A stretch of DNA of 64,000 bases from Halomarina pelagica. Its GTDB lineage: Archaea; Halobacteriota; Halobacteria; Halobacteriales; Haloarculaceae. Position 1 is the first letter of the stretch. The number at the start of each line of letters is the position of its first letter. Position numbers and translations under genes: made by a program. Location: positions 1,302,001-1,366,000 of the forward strand of contig NZ_CP100454.1 of assembly GCF_024228315.1 (NCBI RefSeq), given 5' to 3'. Of this stretch, positions 43,569 through 62,910 are shown piece after piece. The notes beneath the pieces were generated by a model, which saw only the letters and a list, made by a program, of their open reading frames with translations, did not search any database and was not told the origin of the DNA.

Positions 43569-44405
43569 ATGAGTCAGACGCAGACCGAGACGACGTCCGC
43601 CGACGCGCGCAAGTTCAGAAACGTCCTGCGACAGCAGATAGAGAGCGCCATCAGGGAGATGCGCCGGTCGGCGGGCGCGCTCGCCTTCTCCGGACTCGCA
43701 GCCGGGCTCAACGTGAGCTTCGGGGCGCTGTTCATGGCCGTCGCGCTCACCTTCTCACCGGGGTTCGAGTCTGACCTCGTGAAGCAGTTCGTCCTCGCGA
43801 ACGCCTCCGCCGTCGGCTTCCTGCTCGTGATGCTCGGACAGACGGAGCTGTTCACCGCGCACACGACGATGGCGTGGCTCCCCGTGTTCGGCGGCCACGC
43901 CGACCTGCGGGGACTCGGCCGCCTCTGGCTGGTCATCTACGTCGCGAACCTGGTCGGCTGCGCGCTCTTCGCGGGGCTGATCGCGCTGGTGGGGCCGCCG
44001 CTGTCGATCGTCGACCCGGCCGCGTTCGGGGCGCTCGCGAACGCTCTCCTGCCCTACTCGGGGCCGACGATCCTGCTGAGCGGCGTCGTCGCCGGCTGGC
44101 TCATGGGCCTCGCCACGTGGCTCGCGGCCGCCAGCCGCGACACCGTCGGCGAGATCGTCGCGGTGTGGGTCGTCACCGCGGGCATCGGCTTCGCCCCGTT
44201 TCACCACGCCCTCCTCGGGACGACCGAGGTGCTCGGCGCGATGTTCCTCGGCCAGGGCGTCACGCTCGCGGAGTTCGGCCACTTCCTGCTGTGGACGACG
44301 ATCGGGAACGTCGTCGGCGGGACGGTCTTCGTCGCGCTGCTCAACTACGGGCAGATCGCCTACGGCGACACCCCCGACGAGGTGGACGTGGAGTCGATCG
44401 ACTGA
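43569..44405 (+). CDS. Formate/nitrite transporter (FNT) family protein
   Basis: A channel-like membrane protein for small monovalent anions. Six helices are visible from about residue 35 to 260; helix starts include FSGLAAGLNVSFGALFMAV and a GQTELFTAHTT segment in the family's pore region. FAPFHHALLGTTEVLGAMF marks the fifth helix break. The conserved pore His is plausibly the one in PFHH. ATG 43569 is chosen over an in-frame start 18 codons upstream, as the polar MSQTQTETT head is typical. Substrate (formate, nitrite, acetate or hydrosulfide) is not fixed, and the neighbours do not help. Confidence 0.88.
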   Translation: MSQTQTETTSADARKFRNVLRQQIESAIREMRRSAGALAFSGLAAGLNVSFGALFMAVALTFSPGFESDLVKQFVLANASAVGFLLVMLGQTELFTAHTTMAWLPVFGGHADLRGLGRLWLVIYVANLVGCALFAGLIALVGPPLSIVDPAAFGALANALLPYSGPTILLSGVVAGWLMGLATWLAAASRDTVGEIVAVWVVTAGIGFAPFHHALLGTTEVLGAMFLGQGVTLAEFGHFLLWTTIGNVVGGTVFVALLNYGQIAYGDTPDEVDVESID

Positions 44406-44467
44406 CGCCGACGGCAGTCGGGGGAACGCGGGGATCGTTTGAAGTCAGACGGCGCGGTATCTCGCGC

Positions 44468-44677
44468 ATGGTCGAGATCGAGGACGACGCCGTCGTCCCG
44501 TTCGTCGAGGCGCTGGAGGGATCCCGCTGCCCCGAGTGCGGCGCGACCGTCGAGTGGACGGTCAACCTGGACGCCGACGGGACGACGTACCGGGCTCAGC
44601 ACTGCGGCAACGACTACTACCTGGTCCCCCACCACTACCGCTTCGTGGTGGACGAGGGGGGCGTCTACGAGGAGTGA
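44468..44677 (+). CDS. Small zinc-finger-like protein, 69 aa
   Basis: A short acidic protein with CPEC (Cys21, Cys24) and a later Cys46 and His pair (HCGNDYYLVPHHY), which may complete a zinc site. It begins MVEIEDDAVVPFVEALEGSRCPEC and has beta-strand-like segments after the knuckle. Not a family I can name. ATG 44468 is 62 bp after the FNT stop, with weak A/T enrichment (GTTTGAAG) upstream. It joins three other zinc-type microproteins or ribbons in the window. Confidence 0.7.
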   Translation: MVEIEDDAVVPFVEALEGSRCPECGATVEWTVNLDADGTTYRAQHCGNDYYLVPHHYRFVVDEGGVYEE

Positions 44678-44731: not shown

Positions 44732-45907
44732 ATGCCCTCCACTCGCCGCGGCTTCCTCGCAGCGTGCGCCGTAACGACGCTCGCGGGCTGTGGCGCGCTC
44801 GCTGACGGCGAGCGCGACCCGCCGATCACCTGCGGACCCTCGGAGTACGACTGGCCGACGTTCGGTCACGACCCGTCTCGGACGAGCGCGCTCGGTGGGC
44901 GCGACCTCCCGCCGGACGACGCGCCGGTTCGCCGCCTCTCGCACACCGGGACGACACCGGACGGGGGCGGGAGCGTCGACGGCGGTCCGGTCGTCGACGG
45001 CGGCGTCGCGTTCGTCGCGGGTGACGTACGCGTCGAGGCGCGGGACGCGGAATCCGGCGACCGCCTCTGGGCGTTCGAGGACGTGGACGACGGCGTCGGG
45101 ACGAGCCCCGCCCTCGCCTGCGGCGCGCTCTACGTGAGCACGCTGAACCGGACGTTCGCGCTCGACGCCGCCACCGGCGAACGGCTGTGGGGTGGTGCGG
45201 ACGTCGGCGTCGCCGGCTTCGACGACACCGCGTCGCCGACGGTCCGCGACGGAACCCTGTTCGTCCCGGCCGCCGGCGTCGTCGCCGCGCTCGACGCGGA
45301 GACCGGGGAGACGCGCTGGACCGCCCCGGTCGACGGCGGCCTCGCCGGGGTGGCCGTCGGGGACCGGGCGTACGCCGCGGCCCACACGAACGACGGCGGG
45401 CACCTCGTCGCGATCACGCCGAGTGGCGAGCGATGGTGGCGAACCGACGACCTCGGGGAGCTGTACACCGCCCCGGCGGTCGCCGGGGGGACCGTCTACG
45501 CCACCTCGAAGCGCGGTCGCCTCTCCGCGGTCGCGACGGCCGACGGGAGCGTCCGCTGGACCCAACGCATCGCCGACGGGGTGTACGAACCGCCGGCAGT
45601 CGCCGACGGCCGAGCGTTCGTGTCGGCCGGAAACGGCCGGTTCGCGCGCGCACTCGACGCCGAGACGGGCGAGTCCCTCTGGCGGGCGGAGACGGGGCCG
45701 AGCGCTTCCACGCCGGTCGTTCTCGGTGACGAGGTTCTCCTCGGGAGCGCGAATCGAGGGGTCTTCCTGCTCGACGCGGCGACCGGCGAGGTCCGTCGGC
45801 GGATCGCGGACGAGCGCGTCGGGAGCGTCGGATCCCAGCCCGTCGTCGCCGACGGGCGGCTCTACTACCGCCTGGCGACGAACTCGGACGTGTACGTGAT
45901 GGGCTAA
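44732..45907 (+). CDS. PQQ-type beta-propeller lipoprotein
   Basis: Exported by Tat (RRGFLAA) and lipid-anchored through Cys20 of LAGC. The remaining 370 residues are a series of about 40-residue repeats with the pattern VDGGVAFVAGD...DAESGDRLWAF, DAATGERLWG, DAETGETRWTA, DAETGESLWRA and DAATGEVRRR. This is a PQQ-enzyme or YxWG-like beta-propeller of seven or eight blades. Such proteins act as extracellular scaffolds; no catalytic residues for a PQQ dehydrogenase are seen. Length 391 aa. Its own promoter precedes it, and 220 bp of non-coding DNA follows. Confidence 0.9.
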   Translation: MPSTRRGFLAACAVTTLAGCGALADGERDPPITCGPSEYDWPTFGHDPSRTSALGGRDLPPDDAPVRRLSHTGTTPDGGGSVDGGPVVDGGVAFVAGDVRVEARDAESGDRLWAFEDVDDGVGTSPALACGALYVSTLNRTFALDAATGERLWGGADVGVAGFDDTASPTVRDGTLFVPAAGVVAALDAETGETRWTAPVDGGLAGVAVGDRAYAAAHTNDGGHLVAITPSGERWWRTDDLGELYTAPAVAGGTVYATSKRGRLSAVATADGSVRWTQRIADGVYEPPAVADGRAFVSAGNGRFARALDAETGESLWRAETGPSASTPVVLGDEVLLGSANRGVFLLDAATGEVRRRIADERVGSVGSQPVVADGRLYYRLATNSDVYVMG

Positions 45908-46071
45908 CTGCTGTCCGCCCGTCGCGCCCCCTCAGGACGGCCGGGGGGGGGAGCATTGGAACGCACAGGATGACCGGCAGTAATCCGCCGGGTGAGGTGC
46001 TACCACTGACGTTAATTTGTCCACGAAAGAGGATGTCCCCGGGACTCTCGCGCAGAATTGAAAGATAGTGA

Positions 46072-46080
46072 ACATATATG
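46072..46080 (+). promoter_or_regulatory. Candidate TATA box of the Met-rich miniprotein gene
   Basis: ACATATATG stands in A/T-rich DNA (46003-46080) and is 48 bp before the ATG at 46129. A strong GGAAGGGGG ribosome-binding-like site (46111-46119) lies nine bases before that ATG, so a leader of roughly 25-30 nt is expected. Confidence 0.55.
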
Positions 46081-46128
46081 TGGCGAGGGAGCGTATCCCT
46101 GGCCGTCCCCGGAAGGGGGCGGATACCC

Positions 46129-46272
46129 ATGGAAGAGATGGAATGTATGGAGTGCAACATGATGATGCGCTCTGACGACATGGACGAGATGCGGGGGATG
46201 ATGATGATGCACATGATGGACAAACACGGGATGATGATGTCGGAAGACGACATGAGCGGGATGATGCACTGA
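46129..46272 (+). CDS. Methionine-rich miniprotein, 47 aa, possible Cu(I)-binding
   Basis: Twenty of 47 residues are methionine, with three His and a CMEC pair (Cys6, Cys9). Met clusters occur as MMM (11-13), MMMMHMM (24-30) and MMM (35-37), separated by acidic residues, and the chain ends SGMMH. Clustered Met with His and Cys is the pattern of copper(I) or silver carriers such as CusF, PcoE and Ctr tails. No membrane helix and no signal are evident. ATG 46129 has a good Shine-Dalgarno and a TATA box at the right distance; an in-frame ATG at 46078 would overlap the TATA box. No copper transporter gene is near. I know no family for it. Confidence 0.62.
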   Translation: MEEMECMECNMMMRSDDMDEMRGMMMMHMMDKHGMMMSEDDMSGMMH

Positions 46273-46435
46273 TCGCCGGCCAGAGCATCGACGTCGAACC
46301 CGCTGATCGTCCCGGCACCGGCACTCGTTCTATCGTCGTTCGTCGCGCACCTACCGACGGGAGGGGGACGAACCGGGGCCGAACCACGGGCGGAAGATGG
46401 GCTAACCTTTTGCGGGCAGCGCGCGCCCTACCGCC

Positions 46436-48010
46436 ATGACAGCGCCAGCGGATCTCGTGCTGACGAACGCGGCGGTCCACACGCTCGCCGAACCCGACGA
46501 GGTCCACGAGGCGGTCGCGGTGCGCGACGGTCGCGTCGTCCGCGTGGACTCGGCCTACGAAGTGAGGTTCCTCGAAGGGGCGGACACGAGGGTGATCGAC
46601 CTCGACGGCGGGGTCGTCCTCCCGGGGTTCGTCGACGCGCACACCCACCTGCCGATGGTCGGACGGTCGCTGGTCCACGCCGACCTCTCCGCCGCCGGCT
46701 CCCCGGCAGAGGCGATCTCGCTCCTCCGCGAGTCGGCCGACGACGGGGACGCGGAGGGGCCGATCCTCGGGTACGGCTACGACGAGAGCGCGTGGGAGGA
46801 GGCGCGCTACCTCACCCGCGAGGACCTGAACGCGGTGAGCGCCGAGCGCCCGGTCGTCGCCTTCCGCGAGGACATGCACACGGCGAGCCTGAATTCCGTG
46901 GCCCTCTCCCGGTTCGTCGGGGAGATGCCCGACGGCGACGTGCGCCGGGAGGGGGGCGAGCCGACCGGCGTCGTCGTCGAGGAGGCGGTGGACGTGCTCT
47001 ACGCCGCCGTTGAACCCGACGCCGAGGGCATGCGCCGCCTGATCGAGGCGGCGCGCGACCGGGCGCACGAACTGGGCGTCACCGGAATCCACGACATGGT
47101 GCGGAAGTCGGCCGCGCCCGCCGTCTACCGCGACCTCGACGCCGAGGGGGCGCTCGACCTCCGGGTGCGGATCAACTACTGGAGCGACCACCTCGACTCG
47201 CTGGTCGACCTCGGCGAGCGGACGAACTTCGGGAGCGACCTCGTGCGCACGGGCGCGGTCAAGAGCTTCACCGACGGGAGCTTCGGCGCGCGGACGGCGA
47301 AGCTCTCAGAACCGTATCGAGGAACCGAGGAGGACGGCCAGTGGGTCGTCCCGTCCGAGGAACTGGACGAACTCGTCGCGCGCGCTGACGGGGCGGGACT
47401 GCAGTTCACGGCCCACGCCATCGGCGACGACGCCATCGAGGCCGTGCTCGACGCCTACGCGGAGAGCGCGGGACGGCGCGGGCGCGCACCTGGAACGGGC
47501 ACGGGATCGGCGGACGCGCGCCATCGCGTCGAGCACGCCGAACTCCTGCGCGACGACCTGATCGAGCGCCTCGCGGACCTCGGCGTCGTCGCCTCCGTCC
47601 AGCCGAACTTCCTCAAGTGGGCGCGCGAGGGGGGCCTCTACGAGGACCGCCTCGGCCGCGAGCGGGCGCGGGAGACGAACCGGTACCGCGACCTGCTCGA
47701 CGCGGGGGTCCCGCTCGCCTTCGGGAGCGACTGCATGCCGATGGACCCCCTGTTCGGCGTCCAGCAGGCGGTCACCGCGCCCGACGAGCGCCAGCGCCTC
47801 ACCGTCACCGAGGCGCTGCGGGCGTACACGAGCGGTGCGGCCTACGCGGGCTTCGACGAGCACCGGCTCGGCACGATCGAGGTCGGCAAGCGCGCCGACC
47901 TCACCGTGCTGGCGCGGTCGCCGTGGGAAGTCGATCCGTCGGCCATCGCCGACGTCGAGGTGACCCACACCGTCGTCGACGGGCGCGTCGTGTACGAGCG
48001 GGAGAACTGA
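46436..48010 (+). CDS. Amidohydrolase family 3 protein (YtcJ-like)
   Basis: A metal-dependent hydrolase of the amidohydrolase superfamily with composite domain (1-55) and barrel. The first metal motif is VDAHTHLP (about 65-72); later ligands include the His of FTAHAIGDDA and RVEHAELLRDD, and the Asp of FGSDCMPMDP. The end VVDGRVVYEREN returns to the small beta domain. Length 524 aa is in the YtcJ/AepA group. Substrate is unknown, possibly an N-acyl amine or a cyclic amide. It converges with gpmI (16 bp). Confidence 0.9.
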   Translation: MTAPADLVLTNAAVHTLAEPDEVHEAVAVRDGRVVRVDSAYEVRFLEGADTRVIDLDGGVVLPGFVDAHTHLPMVGRSLVHADLSAAGSPAEAISLLRESADDGDAEGPILGYGYDESAWEEARYLTREDLNAVSAERPVVAFREDMHTASLNSVALSRFVGEMPDGDVRREGGEPTGVVVEEAVDVLYAAVEPDAEGMRRLIEAARDRAHELGVTGIHDMVRKSAAPAVYRDLDAEGALDLRVRINYWSDHLDSLVDLGERTNFGSDLVRTGAVKSFTDGSFGARTAKLSEPYRGTEEDGQWVVPSEELDELVARADGAGLQFTAHAIGDDAIEAVLDAYAESAGRRGRAPGTGTGSADARHRVEHAELLRDDLIERLADLGVVASVQPNFLKWAREGGLYEDRLGRERARETNRYRDLLDAGVPLAFGSDCMPMDPLFGVQQAVTAPDERQRLTVTEALRAYTSGAAYAGFDEHRLGTIEVGKRADLTVLARSPWEVDPSAIADVEVTHTVVDGRVVYEREN

Positions 48011-60725: not shown

Positions 60726-60887
60726 TCACCCGGGGCCGATCACGTACTGCTCGACCTCGTCCCGGGTGGGCATGTCGCCGTGCGCGTCGCGCACGTGCTC
60801 CTGCGCGCCCTCGACGACCACCGCCTCCTCGTTGTCCCTGTTCGAGTACTCGCAGTCGTCCACCGGACACTGGAATTCCCAGACCAT
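60726..60887 (-). CDS. DUF1059-like zinc-finger microprotein, 53 aa
   Basis: A 53-residue protein that begins MVWEFQCPVDDCEYSN and continues EEHV-like: QEHVRDAHGD. The pattern C-x4-C then H-x4-H (Cys7, Cys12, His31, His36) is a C2H2-like knuckle, as in the DUF1059 family. It ends with VEQYVIGPG. Stop TGA at 60728-60726, start ATG at 60887. It is too short to stand out by length, but codon use and motif support it. Function is unknown. Confidence 0.78.
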   Translation of the reverse strand: MVWEFQCPVDDCEYSNRDNEEAVVVEGAQEHVRDAHGDMPTRDEVEQYVIGPG

Positions 60888-61007: not shown

Positions 61008-62795
61008 CTATGCCAGGAACACGTGTCGCGGTCGATCCGCCAGCACGTCCCGGCCCCACTGCACGGTGTCGCGGAACGCCTCCGAGCGGAAGAACGCCAT
61101 CGCGTCCTCGCGCCCGCGCCACTGGCTCGCGATGAACATGTCGTTCTCGTCCTCGACGTTCACCATCAGGTCGGTCTCGACGTGGCCCTCCATCCCGTCG
61201 AGGAGGTCGCCGACGGCGGCGAACCGCTCGACGAAGTCCTCGCGGTACTCGGGCTTGGTGGTGTAGAACATGCCCATCGTGCCGAACCCGGACTCCTCGC
61301 CCGCCCGCGCGACGACCCCGGGGAGGTCTGCGAGGTAGCCGCCCGCGGTGTCCGCGGCGCTCGCCGTCTCCCAGATGCTCACCACGGCGCGACGGTCGCG
61401 CCCGCGAGCCTCGTAGACGGACGTGCCGACGTGCGTGTCGTAGCGGTCGAAGCCGTCGCGCAGCGACTCGACCTCGGGGACGAGGTCGTCGCGGTCGGCC
61501 TCCGAGTAGAGCACCAGCGCGTGGACGTCCTCGCCGTGGGGCGTACCGGCGTAGACGCCGAGGTCCGCGAGTTCGTCGCGGATGTCGTCCGCGTCCGCCG
61601 CCCCGTCGGTCCCGGACGCCCCGGCCCCGGACGTCTCGGCCCCGGTCGCGCCGGCCGCGTCACCGCCGGCCGCGTCACCGCCGGAGCCGCCCCCGACCGC
61701 GCCTGTCGTCCGCTCGACGACCCCGGGGAGGTCCGCGAGGAAGCCGGCGGCGGTGTCGGCGGCGCGCTCGGTCTCCCACGCGCTCACGACCGCAGCGCCC
61801 TCGTCGGTCCCGTGGACGGTCGTGCCGCGGTGGCTGTCGTAGTGGTCGAAGTTCCCCCGGAGGCCGGAGACCGCCTCCTCGACCTCGTCCGCGTCGGCCT
61901 CGGAGCGGACGAGCACGACGTGCGAACCCGCCTCGACCTCCGCGCCGATGGCGTCGAGTTCCGCGCGGAGGGCGTCGTCCGTCGCCCCGTCCTCGCTCGC
62001 GCCCTCGCCGGTCGGGATCGGCTCGCCCGCGAGGAGCGCCCCGAGGTCGGCGGGCGGGAAGCGCCGCCCGAAGTAGAACGGGCCGAACTCGGCGTAGCGC
62101 GAGGAGGAGGGGTCGAATCGCATCTCGTAGAGCAGGTGCTTGATCTCCGTCGGGTCGTCGGCGAAGAGGGTGACGCCCCACTCGTAGTCGTCGAGGCCGA
62201 CGCTCCCGGTGATGATCTGCGTGACCTTCCCGGCGTACCCCCGGCCGATGTCGCCGTGGGCGGACATCAGCTCGGCGCGCTCGTCGAACGGGAGGTCGTA
62301 CCAGTTGTGGGGCTCCTCGCGGCGCTTGTCCATCGGGTAGAAACAGACGTGCTCGGCGTCGGGGATGGACGGCTCGATGCGCGACCGGATGTAGCGCCGG
62401 AGGCCGGGATCGACCGCCTCCGGGCCCTCCTCGAAGTAGGCGCGCGCGGACTCCGAGTAGCCCGAGGCCTCCGTGACCGAGACGTACGAGGAGGTCTGCT
62501 CGGTGAAGCGGGCGAGGGCGGTCCGCTCGAAGCGCCGCTCCGCGGTGTCGAGGTGGGCCGTCGTGGGCCGGAGGTGGACGATCAGCAGATCGGCCTTGTG
62601 CCCGAGGATCGAGAAGACGGCCGAGCCGCCCTCGTCGGCGTCGGCCAGGTCCTCGTGCGCGCGGAGGTACTCGACGCCCTCCTCGACGGCGCGCTCGCGC
62701 GCTTCGTCGCTCGCCGCCTCCCACGCGTCCCAGTCGACGGTTCGGAAGTCGTGGAGGGCGTACCAGCCCTCGTCCGTCCGCGGTGGTTTCGGCAT
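61008..62795 (-). CDS. pitA: PitA-type chlorite dismutase/HemQ-like heme protein with duplicated middle module and ABM domain
   Basis: The Cld/HemQ domain (1-255) probably decarboxylates coproheme to heme: FYPMDKRR holds Tyr153 (matching the catalytic Tyr) and SAHGDIGRGYAGKV holds His180 (proximal heme ligand by resemblance), with EIKHLLYEMRFDPSSSRYAEFG after. Then two related modules (about 274-362 and 403-496, each from DELxxLG to FLADLPGVV or YLADLPGVV) are joined by a Gly/Ala-rich linker. The last part (503-595) is an antibiotic-biosynthesis-monooxygenase-like domain. Haloferax PitA has Cld plus ABM. ATG 62795 is used. 595 aa. Confidence 0.9.
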   Translation of the reverse strand: MPKPPRTDEGWYALHDFRTVDWDAWEAASDEARERAVEEGVEYLRAHEDLADADEGGSAVFSILGHKADLLIVHLRPTTAHLDTAERRFERTALARFTEQTSSYVSVTEASGYSESARAYFEEGPEAVDPGLRRYIRSRIEPSIPDAEHVCFYPMDKRREEPHNWYDLPFDERAELMSAHGDIGRGYAGKVTQIITGSVGLDDYEWGVTLFADDPTEIKHLLYEMRFDPSSSRYAEFGPFYFGRRFPPADLGALLAGEPIPTGEGASEDGATDDALRAELDAIGAEVEAGSHVVLVRSEADADEVEEAVSGLRGNFDHYDSHRGTTVHGTDEGAAVVSAWETERAADTAAGFLADLPGVVERTTGAVGGGSGGDAAGGDAAGATGAETSGAGASGTDGAADADDIRDELADLGVYAGTPHGEDVHALVLYSEADRDDLVPEVESLRDGFDRYDTHVGTSVYEARGRDRRAVVSIWETASAADTAGGYLADLPGVVARAGEESGFGTMGMFYTTKPEYREDFVERFAAVGDLLDGMEGHVETDLMVNVEDENDMFIASQWRGREDAMAFFRSEAFRDTVQWGRDVLADRPRHVFLA

Positions 62796-62910
62796 ACCGG
62801 GGGTTGGAACGGCCCCGATAAGGACGTTTGGAGTTTCGGTCGCCGGCGGCGCGTCCGGAGGCGGGAACGCGATCCGTCGCCCCGACGACACGCTCGTCGG
62901 CGCTTGACAA

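Follow-up and report, generated by a model that had tools for sequence, protein, structure and literature searches.

A window of 64,000 nucleotides from the genome of the haloarchaeon Halomarina pelagica was analysed, which lies on a 3.5-Mb contig of a 4.6-Mb assembly (7 contigs, 71% GC). Between a gene for a PQQ/BamB-type beta-propeller protein and a gene for an amidohydrolase family protein, the forward strand carries a short open reading frame (ORF) that encodes a 47-residue protein, MEEMECMECNMMMRSDDMDEMRGMMMMHMMDKHGMMMSEDDMSGMMH (Table 1). As the original prediction held, this frame is intact, stands alone between two gene-free stretches, and encodes methionine (Met) at 20 of its 47 positions (43%). 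The other residues include 6 glutamate (Glu), 6 aspartate (Asp), 3 histidine (His), and 2 cysteine (Cys), while alanine, valine, isoleucine, leucine, phenylalanine, tryptophan, tyrosine, proline, threonine, and glutamine (Gln) are absent altogether. The Met content is not a product of chance, since ATG makes up 0.63% of the triplets in the window (binomial probability of at least 19 Met in 46, approximately 6e-30) and the runner-up among all 47-residue stretches in the six frames of the window contains only 7 Met. A His-rich frame on the reverse strand (46012-46269) was considered as an alternative coding sequence and rejected, as the homology falls in the sense frame.

The original prediction assigned the protein to no named family, which is incorrect: comparison of sequences makes it almost certainly a homolog of DUF1059 (PF06348). 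The Pfam model aligns to residues 7-42 with 18.3 bits (E = 0.0028), just short of the curated cut-off of 21.1 bits, and the protein is therefore termed a divergent member; an ordinary paralog in the same window also scores narrowly under the cut-off, at 18.4 bits. Because Met-rich sequences can mislead, the homology was tested against composition using 20,000 composition-preserving shuffles of the same residues. A profile of 36 haloarchaeal relatives gave 31.6 bits end to end, compared with 11.2 bits for the best shuffle. As the members of this profile were mostly found with the 47-residue query itself, a second profile was built from members found through the Pfam model only, and it gave 27.1 bits against 13.8 for the best of the 20,000 shuffles. 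C6, C9, H28, and H33 are invariant across all 17 aligned sequences; in a second set of 16 sequences, C6, H28, and H33 are again invariant and C9 is nearly so. The aligned length and the spacing from the CxxC motif to the C-terminus also agree with the family, with no net expansion.

What sets the protein apart from the rest of DUF1059, besides its score, is the extent to which Met has replaced other residues. The ordinary members sampled contain at most 13% Met, and the four paralogs in the same genome have only 2-3 Met each. In an alignment with 62 relatives, nearly all of which have hydrophobic residues in columns 4, 11, 13, 21, 25, 29, 42, and 46, the 47-residue protein has Met at each of these positions. 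Met also occupies columns 18, 26, and 30, where no more than 8% of the relatives have a hydrophobic residue, so that helix-surface positions normally held by Glu, Gln, or lysine (Lys) have been replaced as well. Simple expansion of ATG triplets does not explain this composition, given that the protein has the aligned length and spacing of the family. Moreover, the change from Glu or Gln to Met requires at least two base changes per codon, and in a genome of 71% GC this favors selection for Met, though a single sequence gives no proof.

The Met-rich form was found only at this locus. DUF1059 itself is widespread in haloarchaea, being present in 52 of the 146 order genomes sampled, and nothing beyond ordinary members was found in searches for Met-rich orthologs among 8 genus, 146 family, 392 order, and 392 phylum genomes, nor was a Met-rich ortholog found in plasmids or phages. 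Exact 8-residue patterns had no match in viral contigs or in a collection of 84,980 species. A search of haloarchaeal genomes for Met-rich frames with CMEC, proposed together with the original prediction, likewise returned no Met-rich homolog beyond the locus itself; in 391 class genomes, the DNA pattern for CMECNMMM matched only here and, by chance, once opposite an unrelated gene. Since the Met-rich form was found in one species only, there is no support for the idea that it represents a new haloarchaeal family. Rather, a known and little-studied family has here a striking variant, found so far in a single species.

The start codon at 46129 is supported by the homologs, which begin 5-7 residues ahead of the first Cys; a longer in-frame start at 46078 would give 64 residues and does not fit the starts of the homologs. 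Upstream, the TATA box and ribosome binding site of the original prediction fare differently. A TATA-like stretch does occur at a plausible distance from the start codon, whereas the proposed ribosome binding site consists of a run of G (46115-46119) that departs from the canonical GGAGG and sits within a stable predicted leader hairpin. Folding of the whole leader (46083-46140) yielded -26.7 kcal/mol with a z-score of -2.18. The models used in the promoter scan cover bacterial sigma-70 sites only and are uninformative on archaeal promoters. A search against Rfam gave no match, and no terminator-like site was found.

AlphaFold2 predicts strands at residues 2-5 and 12-15 followed by helices at 18-33 and 39-45 (predicted local distance difference test, pLDDT, 84.7), and an ordinary DUF1059 member is predicted with the identical beta-beta-alpha-alpha layout (pLDDT 91.9). 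In the model, the CxxC motif lies in the hairpin turn and both H28 and H33 lie on the long helix, as in the layout of a C2H2 zinc finger. Foldseek gave no significant match, and a sequence search for a solved structure found none. The top row of a structural aligner was AFV1p06 (2lvh) in both cases, a weak match tied with unrelated rows (Z 3.5 and root-mean-square deviation, rmsd, 2.1 over 38 residues for the 47-residue protein; for the ordinary member, Z 4.3 and an rmsd of 1.6 over 40 residues). Given the invariant Cys/His set and the predicted layout, the four C2H2 residues probably bind metal.

Table 1. Features at and around the Met-rich ORF, in coordinates of the window.
Feature	Position	Strand	Remarks
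PQQ/BamB-type beta-propeller protein with lipobox	44732..45907	+	Left neighbor; context only
11-nt direct repeat GATGGGCTAAC, left copy	45898..45908	.	Includes stop codon of PQQ gene; left edge of extra segment
TATA-like stretch CATATATG	about 46073..46080	+	Read from sequence; ~50 nt before start codon; putative promoter
Predicted leader hairpin, 8 bp, GGAA loop	46103..46122	+	Overlaps proposed ribosome binding site
Met-rich DUF1059-like protein, 47 residues	46129..46272	+	Presumed metal ligands C6, C9, H28, H33
11-nt direct repeat GATGGGCTAAC, right copy	46396..46406	.	Leads into promoter-like CTAACCTTTTG of amidohydrolase gene
Amidohydrolase family protein	46436..48010	+	Right neighbor; context only
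Ordinary DUF1059-like paralog, 53 residues, 2 Met	60726..60887	-	CPVDDC...HVRDAH

The ORF lies in an extra segment of approximately 500 bp that is flanked by the two copies of GATGGGCTAAC and is absent from the closest relative (G004), in which the amidohydrolase is 93% and the PQQ protein 91% identical and the two genes are separated by about 30 bp with no ORF between them. Gain by insertion here and loss in the relative by recombination between repeats both fit this arrangement and are indistinguishable. CTAACCTTTTG resembles the sequence that precedes this amidohydrolase gene in other genus genomes. Where the site is readable in these other genomes, both the PQQ gene and the ORF are missing and other genes precede the amidohydrolase. 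The site seems to collect genes, as only 2 of the 8 genus genomes have the PQQ gene. The closeness to an exported PQQ-type lipoprotein that had been pointed out is real as regards the gene, but nothing links that gene to the ORF. Comparison of the segment around the ORF with 59 relatives gave no meaningful DNA match, so nothing points to a repeated mobile element. Nearby genes encode sugar ABC transport components, a beta-galactosidase, and a formate/nitrite transporter, and further neighbors encode a phosphoglycerate mutase, NurA and HerA-like proteins, and EamA transporters. A small zinc-ribbon-like protein with CPECG...HCGN but no Pfam match is encoded at 44405-44677 (+), and it adjoins the same amidohydrolase gene elsewhere in the genus. 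The ordinary paralog of Table 1 closely follows, on its downstream side, a chlorite dismutase/ABM-domain gene (61008-62891, -), and its ortholog is kept in the sister genome. Two more DUF1059 paralogs are located at G000:C1:3455481-3456994, where they occupy opposite strands approximately 1.2 kb apart with a methyltransferase-like gene between them, and another ordinary paralog is at G000:C1:2004749.

The composition of the protein suggests a sponge for copper, silver, or oxidants. The explanation favored here, tentatively and at somewhat less than an even chance, is a cytoplasmic C2H2-type microprotein derived from the small haloarchaeal DUF1059 proteins and retooled for the soft metals Cu(I) and Ag(I); no signal peptide is apparent. 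The four ligands C6-x2-C9...H28-x4-H33 would bind one metal ion, presumably Zn(II) in ordinary members. The added Met replace core aliphatic residues as well as Glu, Gln, and Lys on the helix surface beside both His, and M24, M25, M26, M27, H28, M29, M30, H33, M35, M36, and M37 could then supply extra thioether and imidazole sites for soft monovalent metals. Such a protein might serve as a buffer for Cu(I) or Ag(I) or sequester these ions, with the CxxC motif possibly being the tightest site. The metal-handling microprotein of the original prediction is in this respect plausible, through the invariant CxxC and HxxxxH of DUF1059 and their C2H2-like placement, although not as a new family. That the Met are there for Cu(I) or Ag(I) is a more guarded proposal, and it is doubtful that a nearly all-Met core and a Met-lined helix surface turn the zinc-finger-type fold of DUF1059 into a natural intracellular buffer for these ions. 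Several observations weigh against the soft-metal explanation. Occurrence in one genome leaves no conservation to compare, and the alignment behind the structural model is thin, with 17 sequences. The fold could be looser, since this protein has Arg in core column 22, where all the relatives have a hydrophobic residue. SilE, PcoE, and other known Met-rich sponges for Cu(I) and Ag(I) reside in the periplasm; they are exported and belong to metal-resistance operons, whereas this protein has no apparent signal peptide, and no gene for resistance to copper, silver, or another metal was found among the genes scanned from approximately 12 kb upstream to 17 kb downstream.

The main rival to the soft-metal explanation is an oxidant sink, in which the Met would scavenge hypohalous acids or peroxide and be regenerated by methionine sulfoxide reductases in the manner of bacterial MrpX, and the C2H2 site would only hold the fold. 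Surface columns 18, 26, and 30 have indeed become Met, within reach of oxidants, and a chlorite dismutase-family gene lies approximately 15 kb away. That gene is distant and has a DUF1059 neighbor of its own, however, and no methionine sulfoxide reductase gene was found among the neighbors scanned. MrpX also acts in the periplasm with YedYZ, unlike a protein with no apparent signal peptide, and a sink would have no need to keep all four ligands; an oxidant sink is rather unlikely. It is also unlikely that the protein is an ordinary zinc-finger-like regulator or structural protein of the DUF1059 type whose Met merely fill hydrophobic positions with no metal or redox role. The C2H2 residues, the length, and the acidic character are all retained, the majority of the Met fall in columns that are hydrophobic in the family, and small zinc-finger proteins can act in this way, with the haloarchaeal Brz being a regulator (PMC2253796) and AFV1p06 binding DNA (PMC3541406). 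Yet filling of the core does not account for Met in the charged surface columns, and none of the other members sampled arrived at a comparable composition. Least probable is a copy that arrived recently or is decaying and that now has no function, made ATG-rich through drift or triplet slippage (ATGATGATG), for although its restriction to one genome, the repeat-bounded extra segment, the runs of ATG triplets, and three imperfect 33-nt repeats would agree with such an origin, the frame is intact, its length, spacing, and four ligands are those of the family, and its non-Met codons still have 78% G or C at the third position.

DUF1059 occurs commonly in haloarchaea and has hardly been studied. 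That so extreme a member retains only the presumed ligands suggests that the C2H2-like site is central to the family, and metal binding by the family becomes directly testable. The protein also constitutes a natural experiment on how far Met alone can replace the other hydrophobic content of a small protein.

Among known systems, the archaeal-virus C2H2-type zinc finger AFV1p06 likewise has a beta hairpin with a Cys pair and a helix with His, but the structural match is weak and there is no sequence match, and AFV1p06 has Glu in place of the fourth His (PMC3541406). The CPxCG-related proteins of haloarchaea, Brz and others, are similarly very small and intracellular, with one Cys pair and a second pair of ligands. 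They are defined by at least one CPxCG, CPxCx, or CxxCG pattern, whereas the sole Cys pair of the 47-residue protein reads C-M-E-C-N and is joined by an H-x4-H pair, which places the protein outside the motif definition (PMC2253796). The hypochlorite-scavenging peptide MrpX is also short and Met-rich, but no homology between the two has been shown, and MrpX is exported and encoded beside the methionine sulfoxide reductase genes yedYZ in a stress gene group (PMC4623255), a partner that is missing from the scanned neighborhood here. SilE, a Met- and His-rich silver sponge, binds Ag(I) via motifs such as MxxHxxxxxHxxMxx (PMC5008109), and the M25xxH28xxxxH33xxM36 of the 47-residue protein is one residue shorter. 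No homology between them is shown, and since SilE is exported to the periplasm and disordered without metal, this resemblance would be convergence at most. What the 47-residue protein, as judged from its predicted fold, would have in common with SilE and PcoE is the arrangement of Met and His on helices for the binding of soft metals.
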